This document shows, piece after piece, positions 2,125 through 52,228 of a stretch of DNA of 64,000 bases (the first letter of the stretch is position 1; every line of letters starts with the position of its first letter). Made by a program: the position numbers and the translations under genes. This DNA is from Geosiphon pyriformis (Eukaryota > Glomeromycota > Glomeromycetes > Archaeosporales > Geosiphonaceae): positions 24,053-88,052 of the forward strand of contig JAAOMT010000471.1 of NCBI GenBank assembly GCA_016748015.1. The letters are read 5' to 3'. Below the pieces are notes generated by a model. It did no database searches. It was not told the origin of the DNA and saw only the letters and a list, made by a program, of their open reading frames with translations.

Positions 2125-3116
2125 TATTACCAAACGAAATTAGAGATATTATTTAGCATGAAATTATCTTTATAATTCCTATCATTAATTAACCTATATT
2201 ATTATTTCAAATTATTACTTATTATATTAGCAATATGTCCGAAATTATCATTTAATTAATAACCCAATTTGTATATAACACAAATGTAACCTAATTGTGA
2301 TGATCAATCATGCAATACCCCAAACTATGTAACATTCAAAAAGTTTGCCAAAATTTGTAGAAATTTGCCAAAATAATTGATAGTTCACCGAAATATCTAA
2401 TAGTTTACAGAAATAACTTGTAGTTCACCGAAATGTATCTTTAGTTCAGTGAAATTGTAGAAAAAGAGCAAAGTTCAAGTTCACAGAATAGTGTTACAAC
2501 AAGTTGTATAAAAGAAGAGTTTCTCTCTTTGAGAAAATGTATCTTACTTTAGATTTATCACTTAGAATCATTCCTACACACACAAAAAAAAGAAATAAAA
2601 TATCAAATAATTTGAAAAACCAATTTCTTTAAATATTGCACTTGGAAAATCTCCAAAAACCCAACTACGTTTTGAAATTGATTAGCTACCAATTTCAATA
2701 AACTGTTAGTGACTCCAGGCCTGGATAGAAAACGTTTCCCTTGACAAAATTCTATTTTTTTTACATTTCTTTTATTTTTCTTTTATTTTCTTTTATTATC
2801 ATAATCATTAAGGTAGCCTACAGATGAGAATTCCTGTAGAAAAGTTGACTTTCACAGCAAAATAACTACACATTTTTAGTGAGCTTCTAGATGAGCAATT
2901 TCTAGGAAAGAGTTGATGTTTAATACAACATAACTACATAAAAGCAACTGGCAAGGAATTGGTCATTCCACTCATAAGCCCAGCAGCTCAAATTATAGGA
3001 GATAATTTGAGGATAAATTCAGTTATTGGAGATTCAAACACTTTCCATAATCGTGAATTAACAGCAGTACAACAAACATACAAGAGTTAAGAGGAGACCA
3101 AAAACCTCCGGTAACA
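2125..3116 (+). repeat. 5' LTR of element A
   Basis: Pairs with 11,051-12,042 over its whole length. By eye I count about 43 substitutions and all but about two are transitions. It starts TATTACC (the partner has TGTTACC) and ends GGTAACA. Its U3 part (about 2,340-2,465) holds a short tandem repeat of TAGTTCACCGAAAT-like units spaced about 21-25 bp. A TATA box lies at 2507-2514. Confidence 0.93.
2507..2514 (+). promoter_or_regulatory. TATA box of the element A LTR
   Basis: TATAAAAG, also present in the 3' LTR at 11433-11440. It follows the U3 repeats and precedes a pyrimidine-rich stretch, the usual place for an LTR promoter. Confidence 0.6.
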
Positions 3117-3118
3117 TT

Positions 3119-3130
3119 TGGTGCTCTCCC
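3119..3130 (+). other. Putative primer-binding site, element A
   Basis: TGGTGCTCTCCC begins two bases after the LTR end. TGG would pair with a tRNA 3' CCA. Element B has the same TGGTGCTC start in the same place. The matching tRNA is not identified. Confidence 0.55.
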
Positions 3131-3161
3131 ACAGAAATAACACAGCAACAACAAATTCAAA

Positions 3162-4976
3162 GTGGCAACCACACCAGACACAGCAACTCTAGAGTATTAC
3201 CAGTCAATTTATACACACTGCAAGCAAAGATTCAACATTTCAGACGGAATTGAAGTTGTCAAGAAATCAGTATACCAATACATTGAAAACTGCATTAACA
3301 ATTATCTTTTTGGAAACTACAACATTTTAGAAGCTAGAAACAATCTCTACAATAATTTAGTGCACTATTTACAATTGAGAACAGAAGACCTGAACAGTAA
3401 AACACTTGCTATTTACTTTCAAGAACTTAATTTTAACATTATCAAGTACTGTGAAGAAACATATCCAGTGCAGTCTCAATACTCTATTGATTTCGAATCA
3501 GAGACAGAAACAAGCAATAAAGACAAACACAAATTGAAGCAATACTCAAAAACCACTTCAAATACTCTAATACTACCAAAAACAACTGCCAAACACTTAC
3601 AAACACCTGAACAAGGAACCAGTTCGAAACTTCCACTTATTATCACATCTTTTCCAGCTTCACTTGCACAAGCACAAACACCTAATTCACTCTTAAATTG
3701 ATTTGCAAGACCAGAAGATTTTACATCACTCAGAAGTCCTATCAGACAGCAAGAATCCCTTCAAACTAGTTCTAATCTTCTTGATTTTCTAACTGAAAAT
3801 CAAAGTGAACACTCTGAGATAGCAGTAAACAAAGAAAATGGCTCTGAAACATCTGAAGAAGAATCAATAGACAGCGAAAACAAAGAAAACAAAATAACAG
3901 CCTATATTGCAAAAATTCCCAAATTTAATGGAGAAAATATTGAGACCAGTCCCCAAGAATAGCTCAACCAAGTTACTAAAGCTGGAAATGTAAATGAATG
4001 GAATGCTGCCAGAATGTTAAGAACAATTCCCTACTTTCTCAAAGGAACAGCAGGCGAATGGTTTGAAAACTTGACCACCCCTTTTAATGACTGGACAGCT
4101 TTTAAAACTGCCTTCTTAGAACAATTCACCGATAACAACATCTCAATCACACTTCGAAATTGTTTTCACAATATCAAACAAGAACCCTCCAAATCTGTTA
4201 TGACTTATATTGGGAAATTCAACAAACTTCTCAGACAAATTTGCCAACTCGAAACTAATGATTATTATTCCGATGCTTAAATCTTGGATCAATTTATCAC
4301 TGGTCTAAAAGATAAACTAATTAAAAAGGTTCATCCACATGCCCCAGAAGATTTAAACTCTGCCATACAACATGCGAAAAGATATGAAATGGCTATAGAA
4401 GAGACCAATCACACAAAACTTGTAAATTTGACAATTGAAAAAACCAGCTCAGCAGCTGAGGAAAAAATTGACCAATTCACAAAGAAGATTGAAAACTATT
4501 TCACCAATCAACAACAACAGCAATCCCAAAGATATCAACCACCCCAAAGATGAAATCAAAATATCTTTGCACCACTTTCTAATAACCAGTCTCAGAATTG
4601 CCATTACTGTGGAATCTCTGGCCACTGGAAAAGAGATTGCAGAAAGCTACAACAAGACCAACAAAATAGGAGTAATCAACGTTACCCTCCACCACAGCAA
4701 TCTTATTATCAACCACCAACTTACTATCCACCAAGACCCCAATACCAAAGTAACTACTATTAGCCTGCCCCACAGCCAATCCCACAGCAATACCAATAGC
4801 CACCCTCACAACATTATCAAGTGCCTGCTCAAAGACTGATTCCACAAAATCAATTCACACCCCAAAGCCAATACCAAGTAAACAACAATAGAACCAGTTC
4901 AAACAACCAATTGGTTCCCTGAAATTCCACTCAATCAAGACCCAACCACTATTACACTCAACCCAGTTATTTAACA
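3162..4976 (+). pseudogene. gag: Element A ORF1, Gag region
   Basis: Reading frame opens at 3141. There is no in-frame ATG, and the first plausible start is the GTG at 3162, shared with element B (AAAGTGGCA). An N-terminal region of about 180 residues leads to a retrotransposon Gag core at about 4,010-4,280 (GEWFENL, FLEQFTD). A CX2CX4HX4C zinc knuckle (CHYCGISGHWKRDC) lies at 4599-4640, followed by a Gln/Pro/Tyr-rich linker. Gag would coat element RNA in virus-like particles. In-frame stops at 3699 (TGA), 3960 (TAG), 4278 (TAA), 4551 (TGA) and later sit where Trp or Gln fits, so the copy is dead. No frame change occurs within this part. Confidence 0.85.
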
Positions 4977-5525
4977 ATGCCAGAAGAACAGAATTTTTGC
5001 CATACTGCACCCTCGGAAGATAGAGCTACAGCACAACAACAAAATCTTTCTCATAACCACACCACTATTCTACCAGCCAGAATTGCTGAAAATGCCAATC
5101 TCTCTAATATATTCCCTTTCGAATTTGAAGCAAATGAATCACCATTTTTGCTTAGCAGTGCAGCAGTTAACAAGCAAAAAACCATCACTGCAATGTACAC
5201 AGAAGCTGAAGCAAAAGGAAAGCCAATTCACTTGATCCTAGACAGTGGATCCGCTGAAAGCATCATCACCTACCAGTTGATACAACAGTTAAAGAGAAAT
5301 GTTGACCGACCAGCTCAGACAGTAATTGTCACTGCTGATGGCATGAAAAAAACTCCAGTAGGAGAAATTGACAATTTTCTGTTCACTCTTGATGGAATCA
5401 CCATTCCAGTCAAAGTTCTTGTAATAGATGCTCCCCAGTATCAAGCCCTTGTCAGAAACAATTGGCTCCAAAAAGCCAATGCAAAATTAGACTGGGAAAC
5501 CCAAGAACTACAAATCTCTTACTAA
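4977..5525 (+). pseudogene. Element A ORF1, aspartic protease domain
   Basis: Continuous with Gag in the same frame. The retropepsin-like active site LILDSGSAESII has Asp at 5241-5243 and this Asp is intact. Downstream hydrophobic segments (VIVTADG, VKVLVIDAPQYQALVRNNWL) fit the retropepsin flap and C-terminal part and align closely with element B. It would cleave the Gag-Pol polyprotein. The frame ends at TAA 5523-5525, but the homologous sequence continues in the next frame from about 5,518. That marks a frameshift in this copy, since element B keeps one frame here. Confidence 0.85.
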
Positions 5526-6492
5526 GAACAATGCCCGAGTACTTGCCACTTGTGGTACATTCAACAAATGCTCCGAAAAAGCCCCAGCTTTTGAATTCGA
5601 ACCAGAAGAAGAAAAACAAACAATTGAAACATTCATGGCTCTTGGATCAATATCCAATTGGGCCGATGAAACTGAACAAGAACATTTTACGCCACACTCT
5701 GAACCCAAAACTCCTGGATAGAACATCCCTTACTCAAAGCCTGAACCAAGGAAACAACGCCCCTACATTTTCCTTAAATGTAAGAACTGCCACAAAAAAC
5801 TATCATCAATGGGAGCCTGCATTTCACCTAAAGAAGAATATGAAAATCATACTTGTTACTACTGTAAGGCTTGCCACAGAGAACGATGGGGCCATCTAAT
5901 AAAAAGAAGTGGAAAATGAGACAACACCCCTTGTTTGACTTGTGGAGATATGTTACCAGAAGAATGCAATTGGATTGATGTAGCAATGAGAGGAGGAGTC
6001 TGTGATCAAACCTGCCAATATGCTTTATCAATTTCAGAAAAAGTCAAAAGAGGAACACCCTTTGATGCAGCATACAACAGTGCTTTCAACAAACTGTACC
6101 ATTATTTTCATGATGCCAAAATGATTTTCGACCTAGCAATGGCTTTAATCAATGGAGCCACTCAAAAAAATGTTTGTCAAATGAAAGAATCAGAATACAT
6201 TGCATATACCTTTGAAATCACTGGATACAACTACAAAGATGAAGTAGAAGTATATCACCAAATTGCCAGTTACACTTACTCGACCAAAGAAGCTCAAGCT
6301 CAATGGCTAGAGCAAATGAATGTTAAATTGTGTGAAGAATGCATAATGCCCTGCAATAAGCAATGGTGCCCTGAATGCTATGCTCTTAGCATTCTCCTGC
6401 CCAGTGAAAATGATGAAAACAAAATTGAATTTGGAGAACCTGAAGCAACAGAAGAAATTGAAACAACACCCATCTATCTTATTAAAAATTAG
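5526..6492 (+). pseudogene. Element A ORF1, cysteine-rich module of unknown function
   Basis: Lies between protease and dUTPase in frame +1 relative to Gag. Cys pairs are spread through it: CKNCHKKLSSMGAC, CYYCKAC, PCLTCG, CDQTCQY and, near the end, LCEECIMPC…WCPEC. The first and last clusters look like zinc-binding ribbons; the middle is helical-looking with few Cys. Element B has a clearly related module in the same place, with KLSSMxAC, PCLACG, CNELCQY and LCDHCLIPC conserved although the spacers have diverged. Selection on the Cys pattern suggests a folded metal-binding domain. I do not recognise it as a named retroelement domain. Confidence 0.75.
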
Positions 6493-6970
6493 CCTGCCTT
6501 ACAACTCAAATACTTCAACAACAACAGACAAGGAATAAAATCTGAAAAAGCACATGAAATTGATGCTGGATATGACCTAAGATATCCAGACAAAAATACT
6601 CTTGTTCTCAAACCCAAATCTCTTACAAAAATCAACCTCAAAATTGCACTCAAAATCCCACCAGGAGCAATGATTCAAATCACCTCCCGGTCCTCTCTGG
6701 CAAGCAAAAGAATCAATGTCAGAGGAGGAATAATTGATGCTGGATATACTGGAGACATTACAGTAATGCTTCAAAATGAAACTGACAAATCATTTAAGAT
6801 CAAACATGCTGAAAAAATTGCCCAAGCTATTTACCTCCCCTAATCAACATTTCGGGTTTGCAACTAGTCAATCAAAGAGAACAATTAGGAAAAAGTAAGA
6901 GAAGAACCCAAGGTTTTGGTTCAACTGGACAATTCACAGTTCCAGTTAATATAGCTCTTAACACACCAAA
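6493..6970 (+). pseudogene. Element A ORF1, dUTPase domain
   Basis: Trimeric dUTPase motifs are in order: motif 1 DAGYDLRYP, motif 2 SRSSLASK, motif 3 GGIIDAGYTGDI with the catalytic Asp, motif 4 KIAQAIYLP, motif 5 TQGFGSTG. The family hydrolyses dUTP to dUMP and PPi, which would keep uracil out of element cDNA. It sits between the Cys-rich module and RT within one polyprotein. A missing base at about 6,840 moves the frame between motifs 4 and 5, so this copy is broken. A TAG at 6490 stands at a likely Trp site just before the domain. Confidence 0.88.
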
Positions 6971-8771
6971 TGAATCCTACCAAATTCTCAGACTTCTATA
7001 ATCAATTATCATCTCACCCTTTGGAGAACATCCAGAAATCTACACCTGCCCAAAGCCAACAACCACACAACAAATTTTTGAGTCCAATGAACAAGTCTGC
7101 TTAAAACATAATATTTCGATCCCAAACATTTATATTCTAGAAGAAACAAAAAAAGTCCGAGTTACTTTTTACAATCCCAAAAATTACTCCATAGTTCTAT
7201 TAAATAACTTAGAAATTGGAGTCATTCACAGTAACATCTTTCAATAAGAACTACCCTAGACAGTTCCCAATTTCTCGGAAATCATTAGACATTCACTACC
7301 AAAAAACAACCCAAACCCTAGCTCTGAAAACTACCATGTTGTCATGAAAAAACTATCTCAAATCAACATGGAACAATTTGAACCACAACAACAGAGCCAG
7401 CTCAAAGAACTAATTGTAGAATTTGCCAATATTTTTGCCAAAAACAACAATGACTTAGGAAGAATCAATTTGGTTCAACACCAAATTTATACAAGAGATG
7501 TCAAACCAAGAAGACAACAAGCATATTGAGTTGCTCCAAAAAGCCACCAATTCATCCGAGAAGAAGTACAATGAATGCTTAACAACAGGCTCATCCAACC
7601 CTCCATGAGTCCTTGGGCTTCACCTGTAGTGTTAGTTAAAAAGAAAAATGGAAAGATATGATTTTGTGTTGACTATCGACAACTCAACAGTGTTACAATT
7701 GGAGATATCTACCCCCTTCCCCAAATTGATGACATGTTAGATGTCCTTGGAAAATCCAAATACTTTTCAACATTAAATTTAGAAAGTGAATACTGGCAAG
7801 TTGCTATGGATCTCAAGAATCACCCCAAAACAGCATTTACAACACAAGAAAGAAACTACAAATTCAATGTAATGCCCTTTGGATTATGCAATGTGCCAGC
7901 AACATTTCAAAGACTCATGAATATTGTATATGCTGGATTTCTTTGGAAATCAGTAGTTGTCTACCTTGATGACACTGATGTTTATTTACCCTCTTTTGAA
8001 TTCCATCTAATTCACCTGTAAGAAGTTTTTCAACAATTACATAAAGCAGGATTAAAATTAAACATCAAGAAATGCTATTTTGGGAAAACAAGTTTGACCT
8101 TTCTTGGTCACATTGTTAGTGAAGAAGGAGTTAAGCCAGATCCAGGAAAAATCAGTGCTGTTAAAAATTTCAAAACTCCTTGAAATACCACAGAACTAAA
8201 AAGATTCATCGGATTAGCCTCTTACTATCAGAAGTTTATCAAAAGATTCTCAGAAATCACAAAACCTTTTAACCAGCTTAACACCAAAAACATCGAATAC
8301 AAATGGACTGCTGAATGCCAAAATGCATTTGAAGTCCTCAAAGAAAAACTAACGACAGCTCCAATTCTTGCCTACCCAGATTTCAGTAACTGATTCTGAT
8401 TAGCAACAGATGTCTCTTATACTGCCTTTGGTGCTATCCTATCACAATTGGATGACAATGGAAATGAGCAAGTAATTGTCTATACTAGCAGAACATTAAA
8501 ACTCACTGAAAAAAATTATCCTGCCACTAAATTGGAAACAGCAGCTGTAATTTGGGCCCTACATCATTTCAACCTTTACCTCCGGCCAAAGGAATTTGAT
8601 ATTATTACTAATAATATTGGACTCAAATGGCTTCAGAACAAAAATACTCAGCTGAACGCAAAACAAACCTGATGAACAGGATTTCTAGCAAACTATTGAT
8701 ACATAATACATTACAAACCAGGAAAACTCCACACCAATGTTGACTGTCTCTCCAGAATGAGACAAGATTAG
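6971..8771 (+). pseudogene. Element A ORF1, reverse transcriptase and RNase H
   Basis: A linker leads to RT: LIQPSMSPWASPVVLVKKKNGK, FCVDYRQLNSVT, VMPFGLCNVPATFQ and YLDD at 7962-7973. The motif A Asp is Asn (TLNLESEYW, AAT at 7776-7778), so one catalytic residue is lost. RNase H follows from about 8,390 (LATDVSYTAFGAIL, TKLETAAVIWAL, TNNIGLKWL) and also has an Asp-to-Asn change at the usual TDH. The ORF ends SRMRQD then TAG at 8769-8771. Element B stops at the homologous codon, so this looks like the true end of ORF1. Other stops, such as TGA in GKI(W)FCVDYRQ, are Trp or Arg sites. Confidence 0.9.
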
Positions 8772-8823
8772 AAAACACAAAAACCAACACTCAACTTAAC
8801 CAACCAAAAACAGCCAATAAACA

Positions 8824-10209
8824 ATGAATTTGGAAAACTACAACAATCTCAAACAATATTTAAAGACATTAACAATCTCAACAGATTGGTCTCCAGATGA
8901 AAAACATCAACTACAACAACAAGCCAAACAATATTTTCTACACAACAATATTATTTATTATCGAAATTTCAAAAACTCAGACAAACCACTCTGATTAATA
9001 CAAGAACAGAAAAAAGAGACTATATTATACAACATGTACTCAGATCTTTCATCAGCACACTTCGGAAAAGACAGCACCACCCAAAAAACACTAGAATACT
9101 ACTTTTGGCCTCGAATGAAAAAAGACATTTACAAATATGTCAAATCTTGTGATAGTTGTCAAAAAAGTAAAGAAACATGCCCTACTGAACCATTAAATCC
9201 AATCAAAGTTGGACAACCCTTTGACCGAGTTGGTATCAATTTAGTCAGACCACTATCTATCACCACTCAAGGAAACCATTATATTGCAGTAGCTGTAGAC
9301 TATCTTATTAAATGGCCCGAAGCCAGAGCCATTCAATGAGCAGATACAAAATTAGTAGCAAATTTCATTTACGAAGACATCATTTGTAGACATGGATGTC
9401 CAATTGAACTTTTATCCGATCAGAGGACACACTTTGTGAACAACCTGATACAAAAAATTTGCAAACAATTCAATGTCAAAAGACCTCTGTCTTCACCTTA
9501 CTATCCACAAACAAACGGATTTGTGGAACGTTTTAACAAAACATTGTGTGAGTCATTAGCCAAAGTCTCAACTGATTTTGAGCAAGAATGGGATATCTTT
9601 ATTCCATCAGTATTACTAGCATACAGAACACTAAAACAAGATACCACAAAACACACACCATTTAATTTAACTTATAGAAGAACAGCAACATTACCAATTA
9701 GTTTCACAGTAAAAACATACCCAGCACAGCCAATTGATGAAAACAATTTCCAGAAAACACTTCAATGAAGAGCCTATACACTTCTCAGCATGTTGAAAGA
9801 AAAACAACGAATAGCAGCCACCCATATTGAACACTCTCAAACTCAACAAAAAGAATGGCATGACAACAAATTGCCTCCAGTTACCAACAATTTTAAAGTT
9901 GGAAACAAAGTTTTTCTACACAGAACTAAAGCTGAAAAACAATGGAGTAGAAAATTTGAAAATAAATAGGATAAACCATTCTTTATCTATAAAATACTAG
10001 GCAATGGATCATACAAATTAAGACTTGATGACAAAATCTTAGCAAAAGTTGCACATGGAAATCGTTTAAAACATTATCATTCCAGAAACAATCTTAAACC
10101 ATTAATTCCACAAATTGGTACACATTCCCCTTTAGTCAATCCCGAAGATATTCCCTGAAACTTAGAACCAATAGTTGTCATTGAACAACCTTCCAACTTG
10201 AACACTTAA
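8824..10209 (+). pseudogene. Element A ORF2, integrase in its own reading frame
   Basis: Starts at ATG 8824, 52 bases after the RNase H stop and in the +1 frame. It would encode about 461 residues ending at TAA 10207-10209. Element B has the same ATG, frame offset and length. Domains: H2C2 zinc-binding region (AHFGKDSTT…CDSCQ; the first His appears changed to Tyr), DDE core with first Asp as Asn (GINLVRPL, 9238-9240), second Asp intact (9418-9420) and Glu intact (9526-9528), then a GPY/F-like tail (KPFFIYKILGNGSYKL). Integrase inserts element cDNA into the host genome. Stops at Trp and Arg sites plus the lost Asp inactivate it. Confidence 0.88.
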
Positions 10210-10404
10210 TTTAATTTTACTAGTTATTCTCTTATAATTTAAAAAAAAAAAAAAATAATTTCACAAAAACAAAACAAAACAAAACACTGAAAGACAAAAA
10301 TAACATAAAAACTCACATACCAAAAATAATTTCAATCTATTTTTCTCACTCAAATTTTTATAATAATTATCCCTCAAAATATTCAACAAATATCTCAAAA
10401 ATTA

Positions 10405-11082
10405 ATGCTAGCTTTAAAAACAATACCCGAATTATCCATCACTATTACAGAAAAACATATTAATTATACTCAAACAGAAATAGTTGCCAATTTAGCCCCA
10501 AATTCACGAAATTATCACCCTTACAAAAAGAACACAAGAAGTTACTCTGGAATTCATCTACCAAAACTCTTGAAACTTGCTTTCAGAGAAAATTTAATGT
10601 TTACTCTTATTAGTATTCCACCAAATGCTACTATTCAACAAAAACTTCAACTGTGTCTTAATGAAGAAAACCATGACTATACTCTAATATATAGATATTT
10701 CTACATTGGAAAAGCACTTCATGAACGAAAACAGGAGCTTACAGCAGCAAACCTCACAAAAGAAGCTATTTAAAAACAACTCTACAATGAATTCAAAACA
10801 ACAACTGGACCTACAAACAGTCGCTATAAACTAAGAGCTGCTTTTAGACTTTATGACCTATTCTATACCTGTAAAAACGTCCTACAAAACCCAATTTTAC
10901 AACCTTTGAAGATTCAATATATTGGAAAACTCACAGAACTGAAATTTCAACAATTTTCAGACCAAATTTCTTCAATAATTTTGAATTATTATCTGGAAAT
11001 TACAGACAGTACTTGGACTTCGACGGAGCTCAGTCTTGAGGAGGAGGTTATGTTACCAGACAAAATTAGAGATATTATTTAG
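10405..11082 (+). pseudogene. Element A ORF3, unknown protein between integrase and 3' LTR
   Basis: The open frame starts near ATG 10405 and ends at TAG 11080-11082, 32 bases inside the 3' LTR, with one internal TAA at 10771 at a probable Gln site. It would encode about 225 residues, mainly helical and charged, with no signal peptide, transmembrane segment or envelope-like feature. Element B has an alignable ORF in the same place: IPPNATIQQKLQ aligns with MAPTEELTKKNW, and TNSRYKLRAAFRLYDLF with TNSTLHVRIIYWLHNIF. It may be a third element protein. I cannot name its function. Confidence 0.65.
11038..11050 (+). other. Polypurine tract, element A
   Basis: GAGGAGGAGGTTA ends exactly at the 3' LTR start, the position of the plus-strand primer. 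Confidence 0.65.
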
Positions 11083-12042
11083 CATGAAATTATCTTTATA
11101 ATTCCTATCATTAATTAACCTATATTATTATTTCAAATTATCACTTATTATATTAGCAATATGTCCGAAATTATCATTTAATTAATAACCCAATTTGTAT
11201 ATAACACAAATGTAATCTAATTGTGATGATCAATTATGCAATACCCCGAACTATGTAACATTTAAAAAGTTTGCCAAAATTTGTAGAAATTCGCTGAAAT
11301 AATTGATAGTTCACCGAAATATCTAATAGTTTGCAGAAATAACTTGTAGTTTACTGAAATGTATCTTTAGTTTAGTGAAATTGTAGAAAAAGAGCAAAGT
11401 TCAAGTTCACAGAATAGTGTTACAACAAGTTGTATAAAAGAAAAGCTTCTCTCTTCGAAAAAATGTATCTTACTTTAGATTTATCACTTAGAACCATTCC
11501 TACACACACAAAAAAAAGAAATAAAATATCAAATAATTTGAAAAACCAATTTCTTTAAATATTGCACTTGAAAAATCTCCAAAAACCCAACTAAGTTTTG
11601 AAATTGATTAGCTACCAATTTCAGTAAACTGTTAGTGACTCCAGGCCTGAATAGAAAACGTTTCCCTTGACAGAATTCTATTTTTTTTACATTTTTTTTA
11701 TTTTTCTTTTCTTTTCTTTTATTATCATAATTATTAAGATAGCCTACAGACGAGAATTCCTGTAGAAGAGTTGACTTTCACAGCAAAGTAACTACACATT
11801 TTTAGTGAGCTTCCAGATGAGCAATTCCTGGGAAAGAGTTGATGTTTAATACAACATAACTATATAAAAGCAACTAGCAAGGAATTGGTCATTCCACTCA
11901 TAAGCCCAGCAGCTTAAATTATAAGAGATAATTTGAGGATAAATTCAGTTATTGGAGGTTCAAACACTTTCCATAATTGTGAATTAACAGCAGTACAACA
12001 AACATACAAGAGCTAAGAAGAGACCAAAAACTTCCGGTAACA
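11051..12042 (+). repeat. 3' LTR of element A
   Basis: Partner of 2125-3116 and the same 992 bp length. It starts TGTTACC and ends GGTAACA. TATA box at 11433-11440. Confidence 0.93.
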
Positions 12043-13425
12043 ATAGGCTTAATAATTAACTGAACCAATATAAAAAGTTTAGACAAATTAGATTTCAAAG
12101 AAAACAACTAAAAAAACATCAAAAAGTCATCAATAATTACAAAAAAGAAGACAAAAGTTATTAGAAATAAAAATCTAGAAGAGCTTAAAAAAGCAAAAGC
12201 TTTGACATAAAACTTAGCACTTACAAAATGTAATATAAATACTTTAGAAATTTTAGCACTTTTGAAAGAAAAAGATAGAGACATCTTACAGTTTACAGTC
12301 AGATAATTTACTTTTTAATATCTAAAATAGCTTAACAATTAGAGATTTTTTACTAAATACAACACTTTTTTAGTATATCAGTTTTAATAATCACAACATC
12401 TAAATAAACTTGAGATTCAAATATAATCAATGCAAATTGAGAATAATAACCAGAATTAAGAAAATAAAAAATAAAACATGTTTAACTATTAATTTGGGAA
12501 ATTATATTACTGATTTTAAAAGCAATACAACCAAAGAAAAAATTAACCAATTTGGTCTTAAACTTATTACAAAACAGAATAATTTTATTTTGATTTATCA
12601 AAAAAAAAATCTTAATATTATTTTTATCCACTAAAACTAATCAATAACTTAAAGCAAATACAGCAAAATCTAGTTTTTCAAAATAAACAATTATGTATTA
12701 CCAAACACTAACAAATTTTAGTACAACATAGATAATCTTACCAAACACACTAAAAGCTGTCCTAATATTAGCAACAGATATATTTAAAGACATATTATCC
12801 AATACAATAGCAGCAAAAAAAGAACTAGTCTCAAAAATCACCAAAAATTTGGCAATTTTAAGAGTAGTCAAATAAATAGAACTTGTAAACTTAACCAAAA
12901 AAACAGCTTTCAAAAACTTTTAAGAAGCAAACTTTACACAAAAAAGCTTTACATTGTTCTTTAACATTAATTTCACACCTAAAAAACCATATATCAATTA
13001 AAAAACAGTCTTAATATATAATAATTTAAACTTGAAAGTAGTATCAGACACCAAAATAAAAATTATTTATTTTGTAAACTTTTGATAACTAGATTTGATT
13101 TCTCAAGTACTACCAGCAGCAGCACTAAAAACTAACAAAAAAAATAAATCAGTTTCTATTTGATTAGTCCAGTTTCCAAAAACAAGTAATCTAATAGAAA
13201 ATTGTTGTTTTGTTTTAAAAACCAATAATAATTTGCCAAAAAAAACCATATTTGACAGTACAACCAGTGATTAATCTTGGCCCATTTTAAACAACATGCT
13301 AAATATTACAACAAAAATCTTATTTAAGATCTTATTAAAAACTACAAAGATAAACAGTTGCTTTTACTTTTTTGAAACTTTGGTTTTTTTGACTATTATT
13401 TTTAAAGAGATAATATTAAAGACAT
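12043..13425 (-). pseudogene. Fossil LINE ORF1, middle piece between the two LTR elements
   Basis: The minus strand reads, with decay stops, as an ORF1-like protein. An open segment MKAVFLVKFTSSIYLTTL… (12,913-12,698) is followed by LKFVSVW(stop)YIIVYFEKLD, LVDKNNIKIF, NQNKIILF, TCFIFYFLNSGYYSQF and a decayed Cys-rich zinc-knuckle area near 12,300. Further on, FVSAKFYVKAFAF leads to the element A insertion point, where the frame continues at 2124. I recognise it as the ORF1 of a LINE family abundant in mycorrhizal fungi. That is from memory, and tblastn would settle it. Stops fall on expected Trp and Gln positions. Confidence 0.65.
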
Positions 13426-13498
13426 TGTTACTCATAAAATGAAAAACAGATACAGGGAAAATAGTAGACCAATAAGTGAATAGTATGTAACACATAAG

Positions 13499-13690
13499 CA
13501 CATTGCTCAGCAATGTAGAGCAATAATAGAAATCATGACACATTGCTCAGCAATGTAGAGCAATATCAGAAAACACAGCACATTGCTTAACAATATGGAG
13601 CAATGTTAAAAAAATAAAAGCACATCACTCAGCAATGTAAACATTGCTCAAAAAATCATAGCATATTGCTCGGGAAGATGAGTGATTTTA
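13499..13690 (+). repeat. About 40-bp tandem repeats in U3 of element B
   Basis: Four to five imperfect units of CACATTGCTCAGCAAT followed by (G/A)TAGAGCAAT, spaced about 40 bp. Each holds the inverted repeat ATTGCT-C-AGCAAT. The 3' LTR carries the matching array at about 22,771-22,955. Position upstream of the TATA site suggests enhancer-like or protein-binding units. Confidence 0.75.
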
Positions 13691-13706
13691 TAGAACATTA
13701 ATTATG

Positions 13707-13715
13707 TATATATAG
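13707..13715 (+). promoter_or_regulatory. TATA-like element of the element B LTR
   Basis: TATATATAG just downstream of the U3 repeat array, also present in the 3' LTR. The region is AT-rich, so the call is moderate. Confidence 0.4.
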
Positions 13716-14312
13716 CAGTGTTAGAAGTAGAAAGAGCAGAATTCTTTAGTTAGAAATTTTCCATTCACAAATATTAAATAAAATAAATTATTTACCATTC
13801 AAATTCATTCTCCACTATCAACACTTCATGTTAATAGTAATTGATACTTAACCATGCTGGAACAATAACTCTTGATCATGGCTATTGATGAGACACTAAC
13901 TTGCATATTGTCTTGGCTCATTTCTTTATTTTTCTTTTATTTTTTTTTTTTCTTTGATTTTATTGTTGTATACTAACTGATTAAAGATTAAAGTACTAAG
14001 TAATTAACATCATGGATAGCCTGGTAAAAGACCCAAAAATAAGAGTAAAATTATATATATATTAATGGATAGCTTACCAGAAGGGCATAATTGTTAGAAT
14101 AAACCGGCCACCAAGCTGAAAACAAAAATTGGGAACACAATTCACCAACCAATTACATCATTATTAAATCTCTGTTCATTATACAAAGGACTCCACTCTA
14201 AAACCTTCAGATACAACCAATGTATTAGTATTATCAACATTGTCAAGATATTGAGTACCAAGTTATGGATTTGTTATTTGATTTGAGACCCCAAATAATC
14301 ATCTGTAACATT

Positions 14313-14324
14313 TGGTGCTCCCTG
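14313..14324 (+). other. Putative primer-binding site, element B
   Basis: TGGTGCTCCCTG starts two bases after the LTR end and shares TGGTGCTC with element A at the same position. Confidence 0.55.
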
Positions 14325-14371
14325 TGAGATATAATTTTACAGAGAACAGCACCAACCACAATCATCTAAAA

Positions 14372-16600
14372 GTGGCAGAATCAGAAATCATAGGAACAAA
14401 CCATTTAGGATTTGCCAAATACTTATTTCAACAGTACAGTCAACAATTAAGCTTAACCAACAACCATTATCCAGCAGAATTCACTTTTAACTTTTATGTT
14501 AACAAAAAGATCACAGACTGCTTAGGAAGAACAGTTGATATTGAATTAGCAAGAAAAAACTTTTATACAGAATTATTTCAACATATTAATTTACCAAGAA
14601 ACTATAGTTTCGCAATTATCAGGGAAATCAATCAAACTATTGAAAAGTACACTCAACAACAATTTCCCATTACCTATGCAGACAAAGGCAAAGGAAGATT
14701 GCAAACCCCAGCAGTAACACTAAAACAAATACAACCACACAATTGGAAGAAAACCTGAGTTGAATCATTCACCAATCTATCATACCATTATACACCAAGA
14801 AGTGCCATCAATATCTCATTAACAGGTGTGTCCACATCACATATGACATCAACATTTGGCCGACTCCCATTCCAGAGTAAATAAAAGAAAGCAGAGTTAT
14901 TAGAAACTTATGGCAATTATTTTGAAGGATTTAAAACATGATTACCAATGTTATCAGAATTCTGATCACCACCACCTTAACCAAATTTCAGAAACACGAG
15001 TCCTTGGGAAATAATGGAATCAGAAGAAGAGAAAGAAAAAAAATCTGAAGATCAAAAATTTACTTACCAGAATCCAATCACAGAAAACTCGGAATTTGGA
15101 ACCCCAAATTTTCAAACCCAGCAAAATTCAAATTTAGAAAATCTGAAAATTGGGACTCCAAATATTCAACTACTGCCAAATCAGAACAATCAAAACTCTG
15201 ATCTAATTAATCAACTAGACCTACCTCCCGTTATTATTATTAACCCACCACCAGTTGAACCAATTAGCCAGTCACTACAACAACCACACCAGTAGATTCA
15301 ACAGCCACTAGTACCACTTCAACAACCACCACAACCCAACTTAGATCTAATGGTATACGTATCAATAGCCAAACTCGAAAAATTCACTGGTGAAGAGAAC
15401 AATGCCCAAGTATGGCTAAATAATGTGGAGAAAGCCATTGCAGTTAATGGATGGAATAATGCCAGAGCCATGCAAGCCATTCCATATTTTCTCTAAAATA
15501 CTGCCAATTTATGGTACCAAAGCCTGGTCAACAAACTTCAAGATTTCAATGCATTCAAAATTGAGTTCTTAAGATACTTTAGCAACAATAACAGCATTAA
15601 CAAACTAGCAAACATATTCACTACCATCAAACAAGGAAAAAATGAAGCAGTCACTACTTACTTAGAACACTTCTACAGAAATCTGCACTAGATCCAAGTT
15701 ATTGACACCAATTATTTCACAGTAGCCCAAATCCTAAATCAGTTTATTTGCAGATTATGCAGTAGCATTCTGCAACGTATATGTCTATTGCATTTCATCA
15801 ATCTGCAAGCAGCCATCACAAACGCCCGAAATTTTGAAGCCACTGAATTCGAAGCTAACCACACCCAAGCTGTTAATCTAGTAATAAATAGATCATCTGA
15901 ATTGGATTCCAAATTGAAACAATTTAGTAATTCCATCAATCAGAAATTAGAGAGATACTTAGTTAACAATCACACAATTTATTAACCACCACAATGATGC
16001 AATAATTCTGGAAATGCAAATCATTTCCAGAATTAGTCGTGTCTATCATCATCGACCAATCAACAGTGATAACAAAAAACACATGTTTGCCACTATTGTG
16101 ATAAACAAGGACACCTACAAATCAATTGCTGCCATTGCTTAAATAACCAACAATTAGAAAATCAATATTGAAACCCCGATTGCCGGTTTTAAATTCCAAA
16201 TAACCTACCAAACTCAGAGCCATATTATTAGAATTACATATCTATAATGCAGTAGCCACTTTATCAACCACCAGTATATCAAGCACCAATTTATCAACCG
16301 ATAACACCGACAATTTATTAACTGTAGTCACAACTTATTTATCAGCCACAGTCTCAGGTAATCTATCAGCCCCAACAAATTTAAACACCACCACAGAACT
16401 TACCTCAAAACGGAACTCAAAGGCCAAGATTAATCCAGCAAAGCTGGAGATCATCAATGGTAGTTTACCAACTGATCTCCAGTTCTTTCACACAACCAGC
16501 AAAATCTTGACAATAGAATTCAGGCACCGAGTATGCCCAAAACCCAAATTTCCAGAACTATTTAAGTCTCCTGGTTATTTTAAAAGATGCCCAACTCAAT
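14372..16600 (+). pseudogene. gag: Element B ORF1, Gag region
   Basis: The frame opens after a TAA in the LTR end. As in element A there is no early in-frame ATG, and the shared AAAGTGGCA places a GTG at 14372. The N-terminal region (about 130 residues) aligns weakly with element A. The Gag core (LEKFTGEENNAQVWLNNVEK, NGWNNARAMQAIPYFL) spans about 15,350-15,980. A CX2CX4HX4C knuckle (CHYCDKQGHLQINC) lies at 16,088-16,129, followed by a Gln/Pro/Tyr-rich linker. Many TAG, TAA and TGA codons occur at probable Trp and Gln sites. No frame change was seen. Confidence 0.82.
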
Positions 16601-16739
16601 AATCCGGAGACCAACTAACAACTAACACTTACCAGCAACATTCTACCAGCTACTATTACCAAGAACAAATCACTGAATGCCATTTTCCCATTTAAACTCA
16701 AAAAACTGTCGACCACACCATTATTTAGTGAAACCACTC

Positions 16740-17073
16740 TGGAAGAAAAACCTATTACTGCCATGTATATTGATGCCAAAGTTGATAGCCATTCTATTAA
16801 ACTAATCCTAAACAGTGGATCAACTGGTAGCATCATTACAAAACAACTTATGGATCAATTAAGTTGTCAAGTTGATTGTGCTGCCAATGGTAGGATCATA
16901 ATTGCCAATGGAGCAACAAAAACTCTCATTGGTAAGATCAACAACTTTCCCATCAAAGTCAATAGTATCATGGTCCCAATCAAAGTACTGGTCATGGAAG
17001 CCACCCAATATGAAGCACTTATTGGTAATAATTGGCTATTCAAAACCAACGTGTTGCTTGATTGGAATATATA
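16740..17073 (+). pseudogene. Element B ORF1, aspartic protease domain with lost catalytic Asp
   Basis: Aligns with the element A protease through LILNSGSTGSIITKQL, KVLVMEATQYEALIGNNWL and LLDWN. The active-site D-S-G is N-S-G here (AAC at 16,811-16,813), a G-to-A change that should abolish proteolysis. A TAG at about 17,072 stands where element A has Gln, and the frame continues unchanged beyond it. Confidence 0.82.
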
Positions 17074-17089
17074 GGAGCTTCAAATTAGC

Positions 17090-18160
17090 CAGAATGGCTA
17101 ACACACATGCATACCAGCTACATATAACTATTTCAAAACCACCAATTCGACAACACCACTTATTGAATTTGAGAAAAAGAAAAAGAAACCTACCTGGAAA
17201 GCCTACCAAGTTTCTTGGGCTGACACAAAACACAATGAGCTATTACCAGTACCTTTATGGGATGACAACAGCAAAAGAAAGCAGAGCAAAGAACTTACCT
17301 GAAAAGCCGACCAAGCCTGGGAAACCAGCAATAACCAGGAAGAACAAATAAATTGGGAATGGAAAGAAGACAAAAAAGAAAAAGGAAAGGGGAAGGAAGA
17401 AGAACCAACAACTGACAGCAATCTCACTTATAATTTCTACACTACACTCTACCAATCCACTTATTGCCGCCCAAAACTGGTAAGCATTGATTGCGGCAAG
17501 AAATTGTCATCAATGAGTGCTTGTTGTGGTGATGATAAGGAGTACACTTCAGCAACAAAATTCTACTGCCACCCATGCATTATTGAATGCTTTGAAAGGC
17601 CAAAACAGGTTGGAAAATGGAACAATGAACCATGCTTGGCTTGTGGAGAAACTCTTTTGGACAAAGAAATGTGGAACAACATTTCTGGGTAAGGAGAAAC
17701 ATGCAATGAATTGTGTCAATACATGATTTTCATAAGTGATTGGGTAATAAAAAGAATGCTTATAGACACTGCCTATAGACAAGTCATCAAATGTCTAGAC
17801 AGATGTCCACACAATGATGACAAAATCTGGCGAATGGCACTCGCCAAAATCAAAGAAGTAACATCAAAAGAAATAAAAACAATTAAAAATAACCCACCTG
17901 AACCTATAGAACTTGACTGGAACCCAGAACCAGTTATAAATCTCCTAGATCCAGAACAATTCTACAAACATTATCAAAAGCTAGCACCTATAAGAAAAGA
18001 GCAAGAGCAATGCTTGGAAAAAATAAATACAAGACTATGTGATCATTGTTTAATTCCCTGTGACTTCTAATACTGTAATGAATGTGACCTTATTTACAAT
18101 CCATCACCATACATGATTCACACAATCCCAAAAAAAGACAAACCAATCAGCAGCTGCACA
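17090..18160 (+). pseudogene. Element B ORF1, cysteine-rich module of unknown function
   Basis: Same frame as the protease. After a Lys/Glu-rich linker come DCGKKLSSMSACC, FYCHPCIIEC, PCLACGETLL, CNELCQY and LCDHCLIPC…YCNEC, each matching a Cys group of element A in order. A region of about 80 residues with few Cys separates the clusters. A Ser/Asn-rich linker then leads to the dUTPase. The pattern is kept although the spacers have diverged, so it is probably a real metal-binding domain. Function unknown. Confidence 0.75.
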
Positions 18161-18319
18161 TCAGAATTGGAATCAGTTTTCAATCCTGATTTAAACTTTG
18201 ACAATAACAACAATAAAAATAACAGTTCCAGTTCCACTCAATATAGTAACAAAAATAACAATGATTTGGACTCTGATTCAAATCCCAAAACATTTATCGC
18301 ACTTTCTGATCTCATCAAG

Positions 18320-18800
18320 AAGCAGAAACTGAAATGGTTCAGTGATAACAATGAAAGTATCATGCCAGAATGTGTACATAATACTGATGCAGGGTTTGAT
18401 CTGAGATATCCAGAAAAAAATGCCATAAAAGTGGAACTTCACTCATGCACCTGCATTGATTTCAAAATAGCACTGAAGATCTCAGCAACAACTATGGTTC
18501 AACTAGCATCTAGGAGTAGCTTGGCGAAAAAGAAAATCAACATCAAAGGAGAGATAATTAATGCAAAATATGTAGGAAATATCATTGTTATGTTACAAAA
18601 TGACTTTAAAAAGGCCTATATCATAAAGTCAAATGAAAAGATAGCACAAGCAATATTCTTACCTCTGCTGAAAATAGCTCAATTAGTGTCAATAGAAAAC
18701 AGGAAGGAATTAGGGATTACAGTTAGAGGGATACAGGAATTTGGATTAATGGGTAGAATAGATATACCAGTTAATATGGCAGAAGAAGAAATTGCTGACA
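18320..18800 (+). pseudogene. Element B ORF1, dUTPase domain
   Basis: Motifs in one uninterrupted frame: DAGFDLRYP (1), SRSSLAKK (2), GEIINAKYVGNI (3), KIAQAIFLPL (4), RGIQEFGLMG (5). Motif 3 should carry the catalytic Asp but has Asn (AAT at 18,560-18,562), and motif 5 has lost part of its usual GFGSTG. It is therefore probably inactive in this copy, though clearly homologous to the dUTPase of element A and in the same place. Confidence 0.88.
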
Positions 18801-18895
18801 AAGGAAAAATTATCTCAACCTGTCAAACAATTTCCATTCTGCCATATGACCAGTATATATTAGCCATAAAAAAAGAAGTAAAAGATCAAGCTTAA

Positions 18896-20587
18896 TTGTT
18901 TGAAGCAGAAGCCACCATTTGTGAATCAGGAGAGATTGGACTCACCAATCTCTACATCTCAACCAACAGTCCCAAAAACATTAAAATTCTCATTTACAAC
19001 ACAACTGGAAACGTCATTGAAATACCAAAGAGAACTATTATTAAATATTTAACCACTGAAATTGAGGATCAACTACCAAACCACATTCCAGATTTTCCAC
19101 AGCTTTGCGAATACGTGGACATTATATCACTAACCATCTATGGACGAAATGAATGTTATCTGCTTCAACCAGAACAATTGGAACAGATAAACATGAAAAA
19201 TCTAGACTCACTTCAACAGATACAACTAAGGATGTTACTTAGCCAATTCAATAACATCTTTGCTAGTGAAAATGAATTTGGCCATACTAACATTATACAG
19301 CATCAAATTAAGACTGAAGATACAATGCCAATTAAACAAAGAGCATACAGAGTACCACCAGCTAGCCATGAGATCATTCATCAAGAAATCAATCAGATGT
19401 TTGACAATGGGCTAATTCAGCTATTAATAAGTCCATGATCATCACCAGTAGTACTAGTCCAGAAGAAGAATGAGAAGATCTATTTTTATGTGGATTATCA
19501 AAAACTGAATGGAGTAACTAAAAGTAATAGCTATCCAACTCCAAAGATTTAAGAATTATTCAATGCTTTTGGAAGAAATAGATGGTTTTCAACACTAGAT
19601 TTAGATAGTGGTTACTGGCAAGTAGCCATGGATCCAGCTGACAAAGAAAAAACAGCATTTACCACAAGAGAGGAGAATTTTGAGTTTGAAGTCATGCCAT
19701 TTGGCTTGATAAATGCTCCAGCAACATTCCAATGGCTCATAGAAATTGTCTATACTGGATTATTATGAAAATCAGTAGTTGTATACTTAGACAACACAAA
19801 TATATTCTCCAAAACATTTGATGACCATTTACATCATCTTTAACAAGTATTTGAAAGACTCAGATGAGCAGAATTGAAACTAAATGCCAACAAATACTTC
19901 TTTGGAAAAACCAAGCTTAAGTTTTTAGAACATATGGTGAGCAAAGATAGTATCAAAATGGATTCAGATGAGATTGCAATAGTAAAGAACTTTTCAGTAC
20001 CAACAAACTTGCCAGAACTAAGGGCATTTTTGGAATTCGCAGGCTACTATTACCATTTTATCAAGAACTTTTCTAAACTAGCTTAGCCATTTCACTATCT
20101 ACAAACCAAAAATGTGAAATATGAATGGACTGAAGCTTAACAAGAAGCATTTAACACATTAAGAAGAAAGCTTATCCAAGCTTCAGTATTGATGTATCCA
20201 GATTCCAACAAACTATTCATCATTACTATTGATGCATCAGGTCAAGCATTGGGAGCAGTACTATTACAAAAAAGACCAGATAGAAAAAAACATTCAGTAG
20301 CTTATGCCAGTAAAAGCTTAAGTCCAGCTGAAAAGAACTTTAGAACTCCAGCATTGGAACACTTAGCAATCTATTGGGCTGTCATCAAATAAAGAGAATA
20401 CTTGAACCAAAAGTTTGAAATATATATGGATCACAAGGAATTGACTTTAATCTAGAAGCAAGAATTTGGAAATGATTGCCATGCCAGATAGAAAATAAAA
20501 TTTTCACCATTCAATTACACAGTACATTATAAAAAAGGAAAAGACAATAGAAATGCTGATGGTTTGTCATGAATAAGACAAATCTAA
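18896..20587 (+). pseudogene. Element B ORF1, reverse transcriptase and RNase H
   Basis: The linker and RT align with element A: QIKTEDTMPIKQRAYRVPP, SSPVVLVQKK, YVDYQKLNGVT, STLDLDSGYWQ (motif A Asp intact), VMPFGLINAPATFQ. The YxDD box is YLDN, with the second Asp changed to Asn (AAC at 19,793-19,795). RNase H from about 20,210 has TIDASGQALGAVL, ALEHLAIYWAV and MDHKELTL, a better-kept set than in A. The ORF ends (W)IRQI then TAA at 20,585-20,587, the codon homologous to the ORF1 stop in A. Internal stops are mostly Trp, Gln and Arg sites. Confidence 0.88.
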
Positions 20588-20618
20588 AAACATTTCAACC
20601 CAAAAATATAACAAAAAG

Positions 20619-21995
20619 ATGAATACGCAAAAATACCAACAATTCCAGCATTATATAAATACTCAATTATTCAAGGAGAAATTATCTCAAAAAGAACAAA
20701 ACAACATAAAACAGCAATCAAAATATTTTATCAATCATCAAAATATACTTTACTAGAAAAACAGAAAAAATCCAAACCAATCAACCAAAGTAGTTATGGA
20801 ACCAGAAAAAAAAACAATATTGTTCAACATGCACTCAGATCCAACAGCAGGACATTTTCATAAAGAAGCAATTATAGAAAGAACCAAAAAAAGATACTAT
20901 TGGCCATCAATGTATTCAGACATCATCTAATATGTTCAGAATTGTGATACTTGTCAGAGAAGAGGTAGAACAAGACCAAGTAAACTATTAAGACCAATCA
21001 AAGTGGAACAACTATTTGATTGAATTGGAATTAATTTAGTTGGACCACTAACAATCACTAGCAAAAACAACAGATATATTGCAGTAACCATGGATTATCT
21101 CACTAAATGGCCAGAAGCAAAAGCCATTTAAAGAGCAGATGCAGAATCTGTTGCCGAATTTGTTCATCAAGATTTGATCTGTTGACACGGATGTCCAAAA
21201 AAACTACTATTAAATCAAAGAACCCACTTTGTGAACAGAACATTGACAGAATTAAGTCAAAGATTTAGAATTAAAAGACTCTTATTATTATCATACCATC
21301 CACAAACAAATGGACTAGTCAAAAGATTTAACAGAACATTGTGTAAAGCAATCACCAAAATCAGTCAAGAAAACCAAGACGAATGGGATTTAGTTATACC
21401 ATCAGTATTATTTGCTTATTGGGCAATAAGACAAGATACTACACAAGCAACACCATTTGAATTAGTATATGGTAGAATAGCAACATTATCAGTTAAGATA
21501 GAGGTTAACACATATCTAACTGAACCAATAACAGAAGCTAATTTCCAAGAAACATTGTTGAAAAAAACATATGACCTAATGGAAACACTAGAAAACAGAT
21601 AATAAAAAGCAGCTGATAACATTCAAAAGTCTTAAGAAAAGCAAAAAAAATGACACAATAACCAATTACCAGATAAACCAATTGAATTCAAGATTGGAGA
21701 CAAAGTACTTCTATATTGTACCAAAGTAGAAAAACAATAAAGTAGAAAATTCAATCCCAAATGGGACAGACCATTTCACATAGAAGAAATTCTTGGAAAT
21801 AGAGCTTATAAATTAAGATGGAACAACAAAATTTTAACCAAAACAGCACATAGTGATCAACTGAAATCTTATCACCAAATAGCATCATCATCTACCAATA
21901 ACATTCTACAATTGTAAGTACAACAAATACTAGTTCAACCAAATGAGATTCCACAAGATCTAGAACCAATCATAATCATTGGACCAAACATGTAA
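20619..21995 (+). pseudogene. Element B ORF2, integrase in its own reading frame
   Basis: ATG 20,619 starts MNTQKYQQFQHYI…, aligning from its first residue with MNLENYNNLKQYL… of element A. The ORF is in the +1 frame relative to RT-RNase H and ends at TAA 21,993-21,995 (about 458 residues; A has 461). The H2C2 region is kept (NMHSD, GHF, CDTCQ). All three acidic DDE residues are changed: Asn at 21,033-21,035, Asn at 21,213-21,215 and Lys at 21,321-21,323. A GPY/F-like tail follows (RPFHIEEILGNRAYKL). Integration activity should be absent. Confidence 0.88.
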
Positions 21996-22029
21996 AATCA
22001 AACAATAAAAAAATATATAAAGACACAGT

Positions 22030-22683
22030 ATATGCGACAAAGGCAATCAAAAAAAAAATAGAAATACCAGATTATAATTACACCATAGCTCAACAATTAT
22101 TTCAGGCCTTAAGTCAACAATCTTTAGACATAGAAATTATTGTTAACAACCAAACAATTTGTTACTGAAACACCAAAAGAAAGACAAAAAATACACCATA
22201 TCAGCAGTTACCAAAAACTGGTCAGATAACATAATAGAAAAAGTAAAGAACACTTTTGGAAAAATACCTATTATGGCACCAACAGAAGAACTTACAAAAA
22301 AAAATTGGAAGCAATAAACAAAACAACTTTCAATATCATATTATTACTACCAGTTAAGTCGAAAGTTAAATATTCAAGAGTTGTATATCAACAAATCCAA
22401 AAGGATATTTAACCAAAACATAATACAGCAAATTGAAGAATTTATTGGAAAAAAGACAAACTCAACACTACATGTGAGAATAATTTACTGACTGCACAAC
22501 ATATTTCAGAACTATCCAGAAATACTGTTATACTCTGACATGGAAACCATAACCATTAACCAATGGAGAAGAATGAACAATGTACAAGTAGAAGATGTGA
22601 AAAATAAAGTCGAACAAACAATACTAGAAAAAGAAGTATTAGAGCTAATTCAGAATGAAGATTTCGACAAAGCTCAATATTAA
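22030..22683 (+). pseudogene. Element B ORF3, unknown protein between integrase and 3' LTR
   Basis: Segments align with element A ORF3 in order: IEIPDYNYTIAQQLFQAL, then after a frame change KKDKKYTISAVTKNW, MAPTEELTKKNW, ISYYYQLSRKLNIQELY, TNSTLHVRIIYWLHNIF and a Glu-rich C-terminus ending at TAA 22,681-22,683. Stops at probable Trp sites and at least one frame change break it. Ending just before the purine tract supports its being the last gene of the element. Function unknown. Confidence 0.6.
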
Positions 22684-22699
22684 AAAAAGGAGGAGATAA
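22683..22699 (+). other. Polypurine tract, element B
   Basis: An A/G run with AAGGAGGAGATAA ends at the 3' LTR start. Confidence 0.65.
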
Positions 22700-23586
22700 T
22701 GTTACTTATAAAAAAAAAACAGATATAGGGAAAATAGTAGACCAATAAGCAAATAGTATATAGCATATGAGCACATTGCTCAGCAATATAGAGCAATAAT
22801 AGAAATCACAGCACATTGCTCAGCAATATAGAGCAATATCAGAAAACATGGCACATTGCTCAGCAATATGAAGTGATGTTAGAAAAATGAGAGCACATTA
22901 CTCAGCAATATGAACATTGCTCAAGAAATCATAGCACATTGCTCAGGAAAGTAAGTGATCTTATAGAACATCAATTATATATATATAGCAGTAGCATTAG
23001 AAGTAGAAAGAGCAGAATTTTTTAGTTAGAAATCTTCCATTCACAAATATTAAATAAAATAAATCATTCACCATTCAAATCTACTCTCTACTATCAACAT
23101 GAAATATTGATAGTAATTAATACTTAACCACACTCAAACAATAGCTCTTGATTATGGCTATTGACAAGACATTAACTTGCACATTGCCTTGGCTTATTTC
23201 TTTATTTTTCTTTTATTTTCTTTCTTTCTTTGATTTTATTGTTGTATACTAACTGATTAAAAATTAAAGCATTAAGTAATTAACGTCATGGATAGCCTGG
23301 TAAAAAACCCTGAAATAAGGGTAAAATTATATATATATTAATGGATAGCTTACCAAAAGGGCACAACTGCCAGAATAAACCAGCCACCAAGCTGAAGACA
23401 AAAATTGGAAACACAACTCACCAACCAATCACATTGTCATTGAATCTCTGTCTATTATACAAAGAACTCCACTCTAAAACCTTCAGATACAACTAATGTA
23501 TCAGTATTACCAGCATTATCAAGATATTGAGCACCAAGTTATGGATTTGTTATTTGATTTAAGATTCCAAATAATCATTTATAACA
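22700..23586 (+). repeat. 3' LTR of element B
   Basis: Starts TGTTACTTAT and ends ATAACA. It carries the same U3 array (about 22,771-22,955) as the 5' LTR. ACAT follows at 23,587. Confidence 0.92.
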
Positions 23587-37950: not shown

Positions 37951-38219
37951 TACAAATAAATAAATTGAAATACTCGTTTAAGCAATGAGACGACCGGTAT
38001 TATAGCTACTAAATCTATTTATAGTTAAACTTGTGTAATCAATTTGTAGCAAATAATAGTTTCGATATTTTGTTATTTGATAACATAGAGAAGCAGCAGT
38101 ATAAAATAGGGACTCTGCCTTTTAAGAAATCACTTACTTTCTTAACGTACGATATAAAAAAGCTCTCTTCGAATTATAACCTCTTCACATTTAATATTTT
38201 ATCTCCGCTTATACACATC

Positions 38220-38679
38220 ATGGAAAACAAAGAAATCACAAGAACTCATTCAGAAATACATGATTGCAACCTGTGTTCACTCTGTCAAGAGAGTATTCTA
38301 AATAATAATTCTAATCGTTGTAGCGCATGCTGGTTCATATTTTTAAAAAAACTTTACCACGACTTTTCAAGCGGCAATAAAGATGTTGATGAAATAATTA
38401 AGAGTCCAATCTATATTCCACCTAATCGGTCTAACAGTTATAAGGCTAATTTTCTTTATTATGAATGGATTTCATGGGAGCGTTTGTCGAATATCAAAGA
38501 AATTGATAGAGGAGGATTCAGTAGAATTTATACAGCAACTATAATTGATGGATTAATTAATGAATATACTCTGAAACATTATGGTTCAATGGAATATAAA
38601 AGATGGAGATTAGAGGGTGATGTAGCAATAAAAATTATGTCAAAGAACAGTGAAGAAGTGTTTAAAGAGGTAAACAAAC

Positions 38680-38734
<55 letters not shown>

Positions 38735-52197: not shown

Positions 52198-52228
<31 letters not shown>

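Follow-up and report, generated by a model that had tools for sequence, protein, structure and literature searches.

By cleaving dUTP, trimeric dUTPases exclude uracil from newly made DNA; the nucleocapsid (NC) of the NC-dUTPases of mouse mammary tumor virus (MMTV) and Mason-Pfizer monkey virus (MPMV) is zinc-binding. According to excerpts of the reports cited here and below, both viruses carry this fusion of nucleocapsid and trimeric dUTPase in the particle (PMC8961515), and the dUTPases of betaretroviruses and of fungal chromoviruses are alike, as noted in a review of long terminal repeat (LTR) elements (PMC2774666). Among Ty3/Gypsy elements, a dUTPase between the protease (PR) and the reverse transcriptase (RT) was described in PosPlaTy3-5 of Postia placenta, with Phanerochaete and Tuber elements cited in the same report (PMC2864245), and the PR-dUTPase-RT order is found in Juno, Vesta and TelKA of bdelloid rotifers (PMC5408684). 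In Entomophthora muscae, dUTPase domains are enriched among transposon-related families (PMC11105155). Here, we analyze a 64,000-nucleotide stretch of the Geosiphon pyriformis genome (contig JAAOMT010000471.1, positions 24,053 to 88,052 of the forward strand; hereafter, the window), in which two Ty3/Gypsy elements, A and B, carry a dUTPase preceded by a Cys-rich module. The initial annotation of the window contrasted the dUTPase of these elements with the usual Ty3/Gypsy order, which lacks one; since dUTPase-bearing elements had already been described in fungi (PMC2864245) and bdelloid rotifers (PMC5408684), the dUTPase part extends a known arrangement to another host lineage, and the novelty rests on the module.

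PosPlaTy3-5 and its kin share the PR-dUTPase-RT order with the Geosiphon elements, whereas the excerpted report, compared by description only, mentions no Cys-rich module between PR and dUTPase for them (PMC2864245). Its supplement legend refers to chromodomain elements, whereas a scan of two integrase (IN) end pieces from one broken Geosiphon copy detected no chromodomain. Juno has an extra zinc knuckle after the dUTPase, whereas the Geosiphon module, of about 200 residues with Cys pairs and helices, lies before it (PMC5408684). In the NC-dUTPases, the partner is the Gag nucleocapsid; the Geosiphon module, in contrast, lies after PR, apart from the Gag zinc knuckle, and is Cys-only, and none of 28 module members matched a CCHC family at E 0.1. 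Ty3 of Saccharomyces, in which we know of neither a dUTPase nor such a module, gave the best solved-structure match to the RT of L011, a copy of a third Geosiphon subfamily, L (PDB sequence search, by score only: 287 bits; next different enzyme, 189). Our search of the open-access literature found no description of dUTPase elements in Geosiphon or of a Cys-rich module before a dUTPase.

Sequence comparisons establish the domain order, the abundance of the elements, the coupling of module and dUTPase and the conservation of the Cys. On this basis, we propose, with a probability of about 0.55, that these elements are degenerate copies of one large, old Geosiphon Ty3/Gypsy family with the order Gag-PR-module-dUTPase-RT-RNase H (RH)-IN plus a third open reading frame (ORF), and that its module, as an accessory domain, binds metal and holds the dUTPase in the particle. 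The polyprotein would yield a module-dUTPase polypeptide in the particle, where the trimeric-type dUTPase would destroy dUTP during reverse transcription. The module, probably a helical core flanked by three Cys4 zinc sites, would keep the dUTPase there through protein or nucleic-acid contacts. Two independent precedents, the NC-dUTPases of MMTV and MPMV (PMC8961515) and the knuckle of Juno (PMC5408684), likewise have a zinc-binding segment adjoining the dUTPase of a retroelement.

Association of the module with the dUTPase in the genome

The arrangement had been noticed at two loci, elements A and B, and is far more widespread. A dUTPase search of the genome gave 3181 first-look candidates, of which 150 were scored; all of these were above the cut-off, indicating at least 150 loci. 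The module was matched at least 121 times with the subfamily L query and at least 150 times with each of the window A and B-type queries; these lists may overlap and are not additive. The arrangement thus recurs throughout the genome, which rules out a chance ORF or an artefact. Repeats make up 64.35% of the Geosiphon genome, according to the excerpted report (PMC9453076).

The module lies directly upstream of the dUTPase in all 81 of the 150 scored dUTPase matches that were examined, including the eight loci first cut out. Sixty-three dUTPase matches start 396-1008 nt downstream of the start of a listed module match on the same strand, and the coordinate comparison, which used the first 44 of the 150 B-type module matches, revealed no case of the reverse order within 1500 nt. 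Inspection of 18 further dUTPase loci, taken from those left unmatched by coordinates, identified the module in every one of them: three long loci (L009, L014 and L016), L052-L054, and 12 of 12 further loci fetched, among which the match in L064 was weak (37.5 bits).

The dUTPase and its probable joint inheritance with the module

All five dUTPase motifs were said to lie between PR and RT in element A, and they are indeed present in order, with motif V in a different frame (Table 1). The Pfam profile search detected the dUTPase well above the cut-off of 22 bits both in A and in L011, where 77.9 bits were obtained over profile positions 5-128 of 129 in one frame. Judged by profile and motifs, the dUTPase of these elements is genuine and of the trimeric type.

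The initial annotation had also suggested that both segments were acquired before A and B diverged. They are collinear in A, B and L, and BLAST comparisons of the L domains with A and B, respectively, gave identities of 38% and 49% for the capsid, 61% and 57% for PR, 40% and 40% for the module, 53% and 54% for the dUTPase, 59% and 57% for RT, and 51% and 45% for RH. Since the module has diverged like its neighbors, the common ancestor of A, B and L would have had both parts, and the suggestion is upheld: module and dUTPase were probably inherited together. At E 1e-3, the linkers of L after PR and before RT match B (38% and 36%, respectively) and not A. L and B have a stretch between dUTPase and RT in common (36%), which by eye is also present in A (window positions 7010-7250 and 18896-19435, and the end of P0001). 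A 180-residue piece of B that includes this stretch matches Spuma_A9PTase (E 2.4e-5, 25 bits, cut-off 21).

Pattern and conservation of the Cys-rich module

A Cys-rich segment of about 300 residues had been reported before the dUTPase; in A, we count about 320 codons between the stop of PR and the dUTPase, of which 200 form the Cys core. The pattern is C-x2-C-x9-C-x14-C-x2-C-x19-C-x2-C-x19-C-x3-C, followed by 105 residues with no conserved Cys, predicted to be helical, and then C-x2-C-x3-C-x4-C-x2-C. By eye, the module of A has all 14 Cys, and that of B lacks the first. Across 22 rows sharing 30-41% identity with the reference, the 14 Cys were retained 207 of 227 times, as against 1060 of 3348 for the other residues. 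Three more Cys positions were excluded after they were seen to vary (209/277 if included), and the rows were those with more than 90 aligned positions, which left out the short row at window 17486-17689 and perhaps others. Additionally, the ratio of nonsynonymous to synonymous differences (pN/pS) in the module among recent L copies was 0.34 in frame, compared with 0.53 and 0.93 out of frame (29 of 30 loci).

No Pfam family exceeded the cut-off in the three linker and Cys-rich pieces of A; for 5524-5712 of the PR-module linker, none matched. In 28 module members, no family other than dUTPase and DCD matched more than one member, the best being NMD3 (E 0.0081) and XPA_N (E 0.07). Cytochrome c matches of one piece (E 8e-4) were rejected as below the cut-off, with the CxxC arising by chance. 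No relative was found in the PDB. In a protein search with the module, the 120 best matches of 576 at E 1 were all from Geosiphon, although the 5-residue-word seeding of this search may miss distant Glomeromycotina relatives. The module is a real, conserved domain as yet without an assigned family, seen among the searchable proteins in Geosiphon only. The Cys conservation makes metal binding plausible, and the module may be a new metal-binding part. More specifically, though we hold this only tentatively, it would represent a new zinc-binding family that the Geosiphon lineage either invented or captured and that serves the retrotransposon dUTPase as its obligate N-terminal partner; the arrangement would be convergent with the betaretroviral NC-dUTPase and built from an unrelated domain.

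Evidence against the proposed role and alternative explanations

Several observations weigh against the proposal of a metal-binding domain that retains the dUTPase. Metal binding, enzyme activity and the processing of a module-dUTPase polypeptide are all predicted. The structure models of the module, which the initial annotation had envisaged as a check, are weak overall (mean pLDDT, the predicted local distance difference test, of 51 and 67.5), and their least certain regions take in the final Cys pair and the greater share of the first Cys part; they gave no Foldseek match with E ≤0.001. What did emerge with confidence are the helices of residues 81-150 (block means of 81-96). The low model confidence across much of the Cys parts would suit an unfolded spacer with cysteines present by chance, an explanation that we consider very improbable given these helices, the retention of the Cys in divergent rows and the conservation of the module in three subfamilies.

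The charge of the module also bears on its role. In the example from A, it is -1.0 in the first zinc part, -6.0 in the helical part and -8.3 in the last part; the values for B are -1.2 and -13.3; and among one protein per type, a basic first part (+7.8) is seen only in that of L. The module might act like a second nucleocapsid, binding nucleic acid and tethering the dUTPase to the template, a role for which the NC-dUTPase fusions and Juno are precedents and which the L example would fit. The neutral to acidic modules of A and B, one example each, weaken such a tether, and we regard it as unlikely. Their charge is better suited to protein contacts, as would be expected if the module were a captured domain that binds host factors, or a chromatin- or ubiquitin-type (RING- or PHD-like) zinc domain, that acts in the host cell to target the element or the proteins it encodes and is only incidentally adjacent to the dUTPase. 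The spacing of the Cys pairs and the helical part fit such a domain, and PHD and RING chains do appear in the Foldseek results, but at E 2.0 to 5.8 only. With no significant sequence or fold match and with the module accompanying every dUTPase match examined, we consider this explanation rather unlikely, if somewhat less so than the tether.

The retained-enzyme proposal must also accommodate some features of the enzymes themselves. The PR of L011 reads DSK where DSG is expected, motif III of the B dUTPase is GEIINAKY as compared with GGIIDAGY in A, and motif V of B is degenerate. Among the recent L copies, pN/pS gave no clear in-frame signal for the dUTPase (0.62 in frame versus 0.50 and 0.50; 22 of 30 loci), PR (0.50 versus 0.43 and 0.94; 26 of 30) or the PR-module linker (0.71 versus 0.44 and 0.48; 29 of 30), as is expected if most differences postdate insertion.

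Structure and decay of the elements

Element A is a decayed Ty3/Gypsy LTR retrotransposon (window 2125-12042), and its PR-RT-RH-IN order with LTRs is that of the Ty3/Gypsy elements (Metaviridae). Its LTRs are 95.7% identical (43 mismatches across 990 aligned nt). The in-frame stops (Table 1) and the shift of frame at 5523, where PR meets the module, indicate that this copy is dead. The IN catalytic core matches, PF13683 (7e-6) and PF00665 (2.5e-5), are each below their own cut-off. The 122-residue piece of the third ORF has at least 150 genomic copies, many of them open over 230-290 residues, which suggests that the family retains this ORF; the two pieces scanned matched no Pfam family. The five bases flanking A (2120-2124, AACAG; 12043-12047, ATAGG; by eye) form no clean target-site duplication. 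Element B is probably older than A, based on its lower LTR identity, and its LTR holds three tandem 40-nt repeats (window 13499-13618). In L011, a single open frame of 1433 residues spans Gag, PR, module, dUTPase and linker, which identifies the breaks in the window copies as decay.

Table 1. Features of elements A and B, with positions in the window
Feature	Position	Strand	Basis or remark
5' LTR of A	2125-3116	+	Begins TATTACC, ends GGTAACA; exact ends set by eye
gag region of A, broken	3162-4850 (approximate ends)	+	BLAST of subfamily L capsid against frame 2, 38% over 178 residues
CCHC zinc-knuckle-like stretch in gag of A	near 4600-4650	+	By eye
Aspartic protease (PR) of A	4923-5522	+	LILDSGSA; PF13650 E 5.8e-9
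PR-to-Cys-core linker of A	5524-5778	+	Three-frame translation; frame differs from PR; in-frame stop 5719
Cys-rich module core of A	5779-6378	+	CxxC units, helical middle, CxxC units; frame starts 5524, first CxxC 5779, end of last CxxC 6378 (by eye); in-frame stop 5917
Module-to-dUTPase tail of A	6379-6492	+	In-frame stop 6490
dUTPase of A	6493-6930	+	PF00692 E 4.5e-19, 68.9 bits (6493-6840); motifs I 6562-6576, II 6685-6702, III 6724-6747, IV 6814-6831 (I-IV, 6562-6831, in one frame) and V 6909-6929 (another frame); in-frame stop 6841
RT piece of A	7662-8018	+	PF00078 E 1.4e-17; subfamily L RT match 59% over 230 residues
IN of A, H2C2 zinc domain and catalytic core pieces	8995-9765	+	PF17921 E 6.8e-18 (8995-9336)
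Third ORF of A, downstream of IN	10330-11037	+	Recurrence in genome
3' LTR of A	11051-12042	+	LTR-LTR alignment; ends set by eye
Element B	13420-23586	+	Same domain order as A, one frame interrupted by stops
LTRs of B	13420-14310, 22694-23586	+	87.9% identity
PR of B	16619-17071	+	Collinear with A
Cys-rich module of B	about 17486-18085	+	Collinear with A
dUTPase motifs of B	18386-18754	+	PF00692 E 5.9e-18, 65.3 bits

In 30 loci of subfamily L (L019-L048), C>T and G>A changes were equally frequent (0.0339 and 0.0355 per site, respectively), about 4 to 16 times as frequent as other changes, and somewhat more so at CpG. Many in-frame stops are TGA. Uracil-driven, strand-biased hypermutation was rejected as the source of the TGA stops because C>T equals G>A. 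Such a strand-symmetric spectrum points to double-stranded decay after insertion, and the decay of the copies looks like a process akin to repeat-induced point mutation, or like deamination, acting on double-stranded DNA. This spectrum neither supports nor refutes a function of the dUTPase; the protection from uracil suggested in the initial annotation would follow from the chemistry of the enzyme.

Elsewhere in the window, an open frame at 38025-39781 (+) is protein kinase-like, and another at 51715-52293 (+) resembles a lipase gene, both by eye from the first 60 residues.

Significance

Several retroelement groups have gained a dUTPase, which in certain cases adjoins a zinc-binding part. The Geosiphon module adds a protein domain without a catalogued family, present in at least 150 places in one genome. 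Whether the dUTPase of a retroelement requires a partner for its retention in the particle could be tested independently with this unrelated Cys-rich partner, which accompanies every examined dUTPase copy of a very abundant fungal family.
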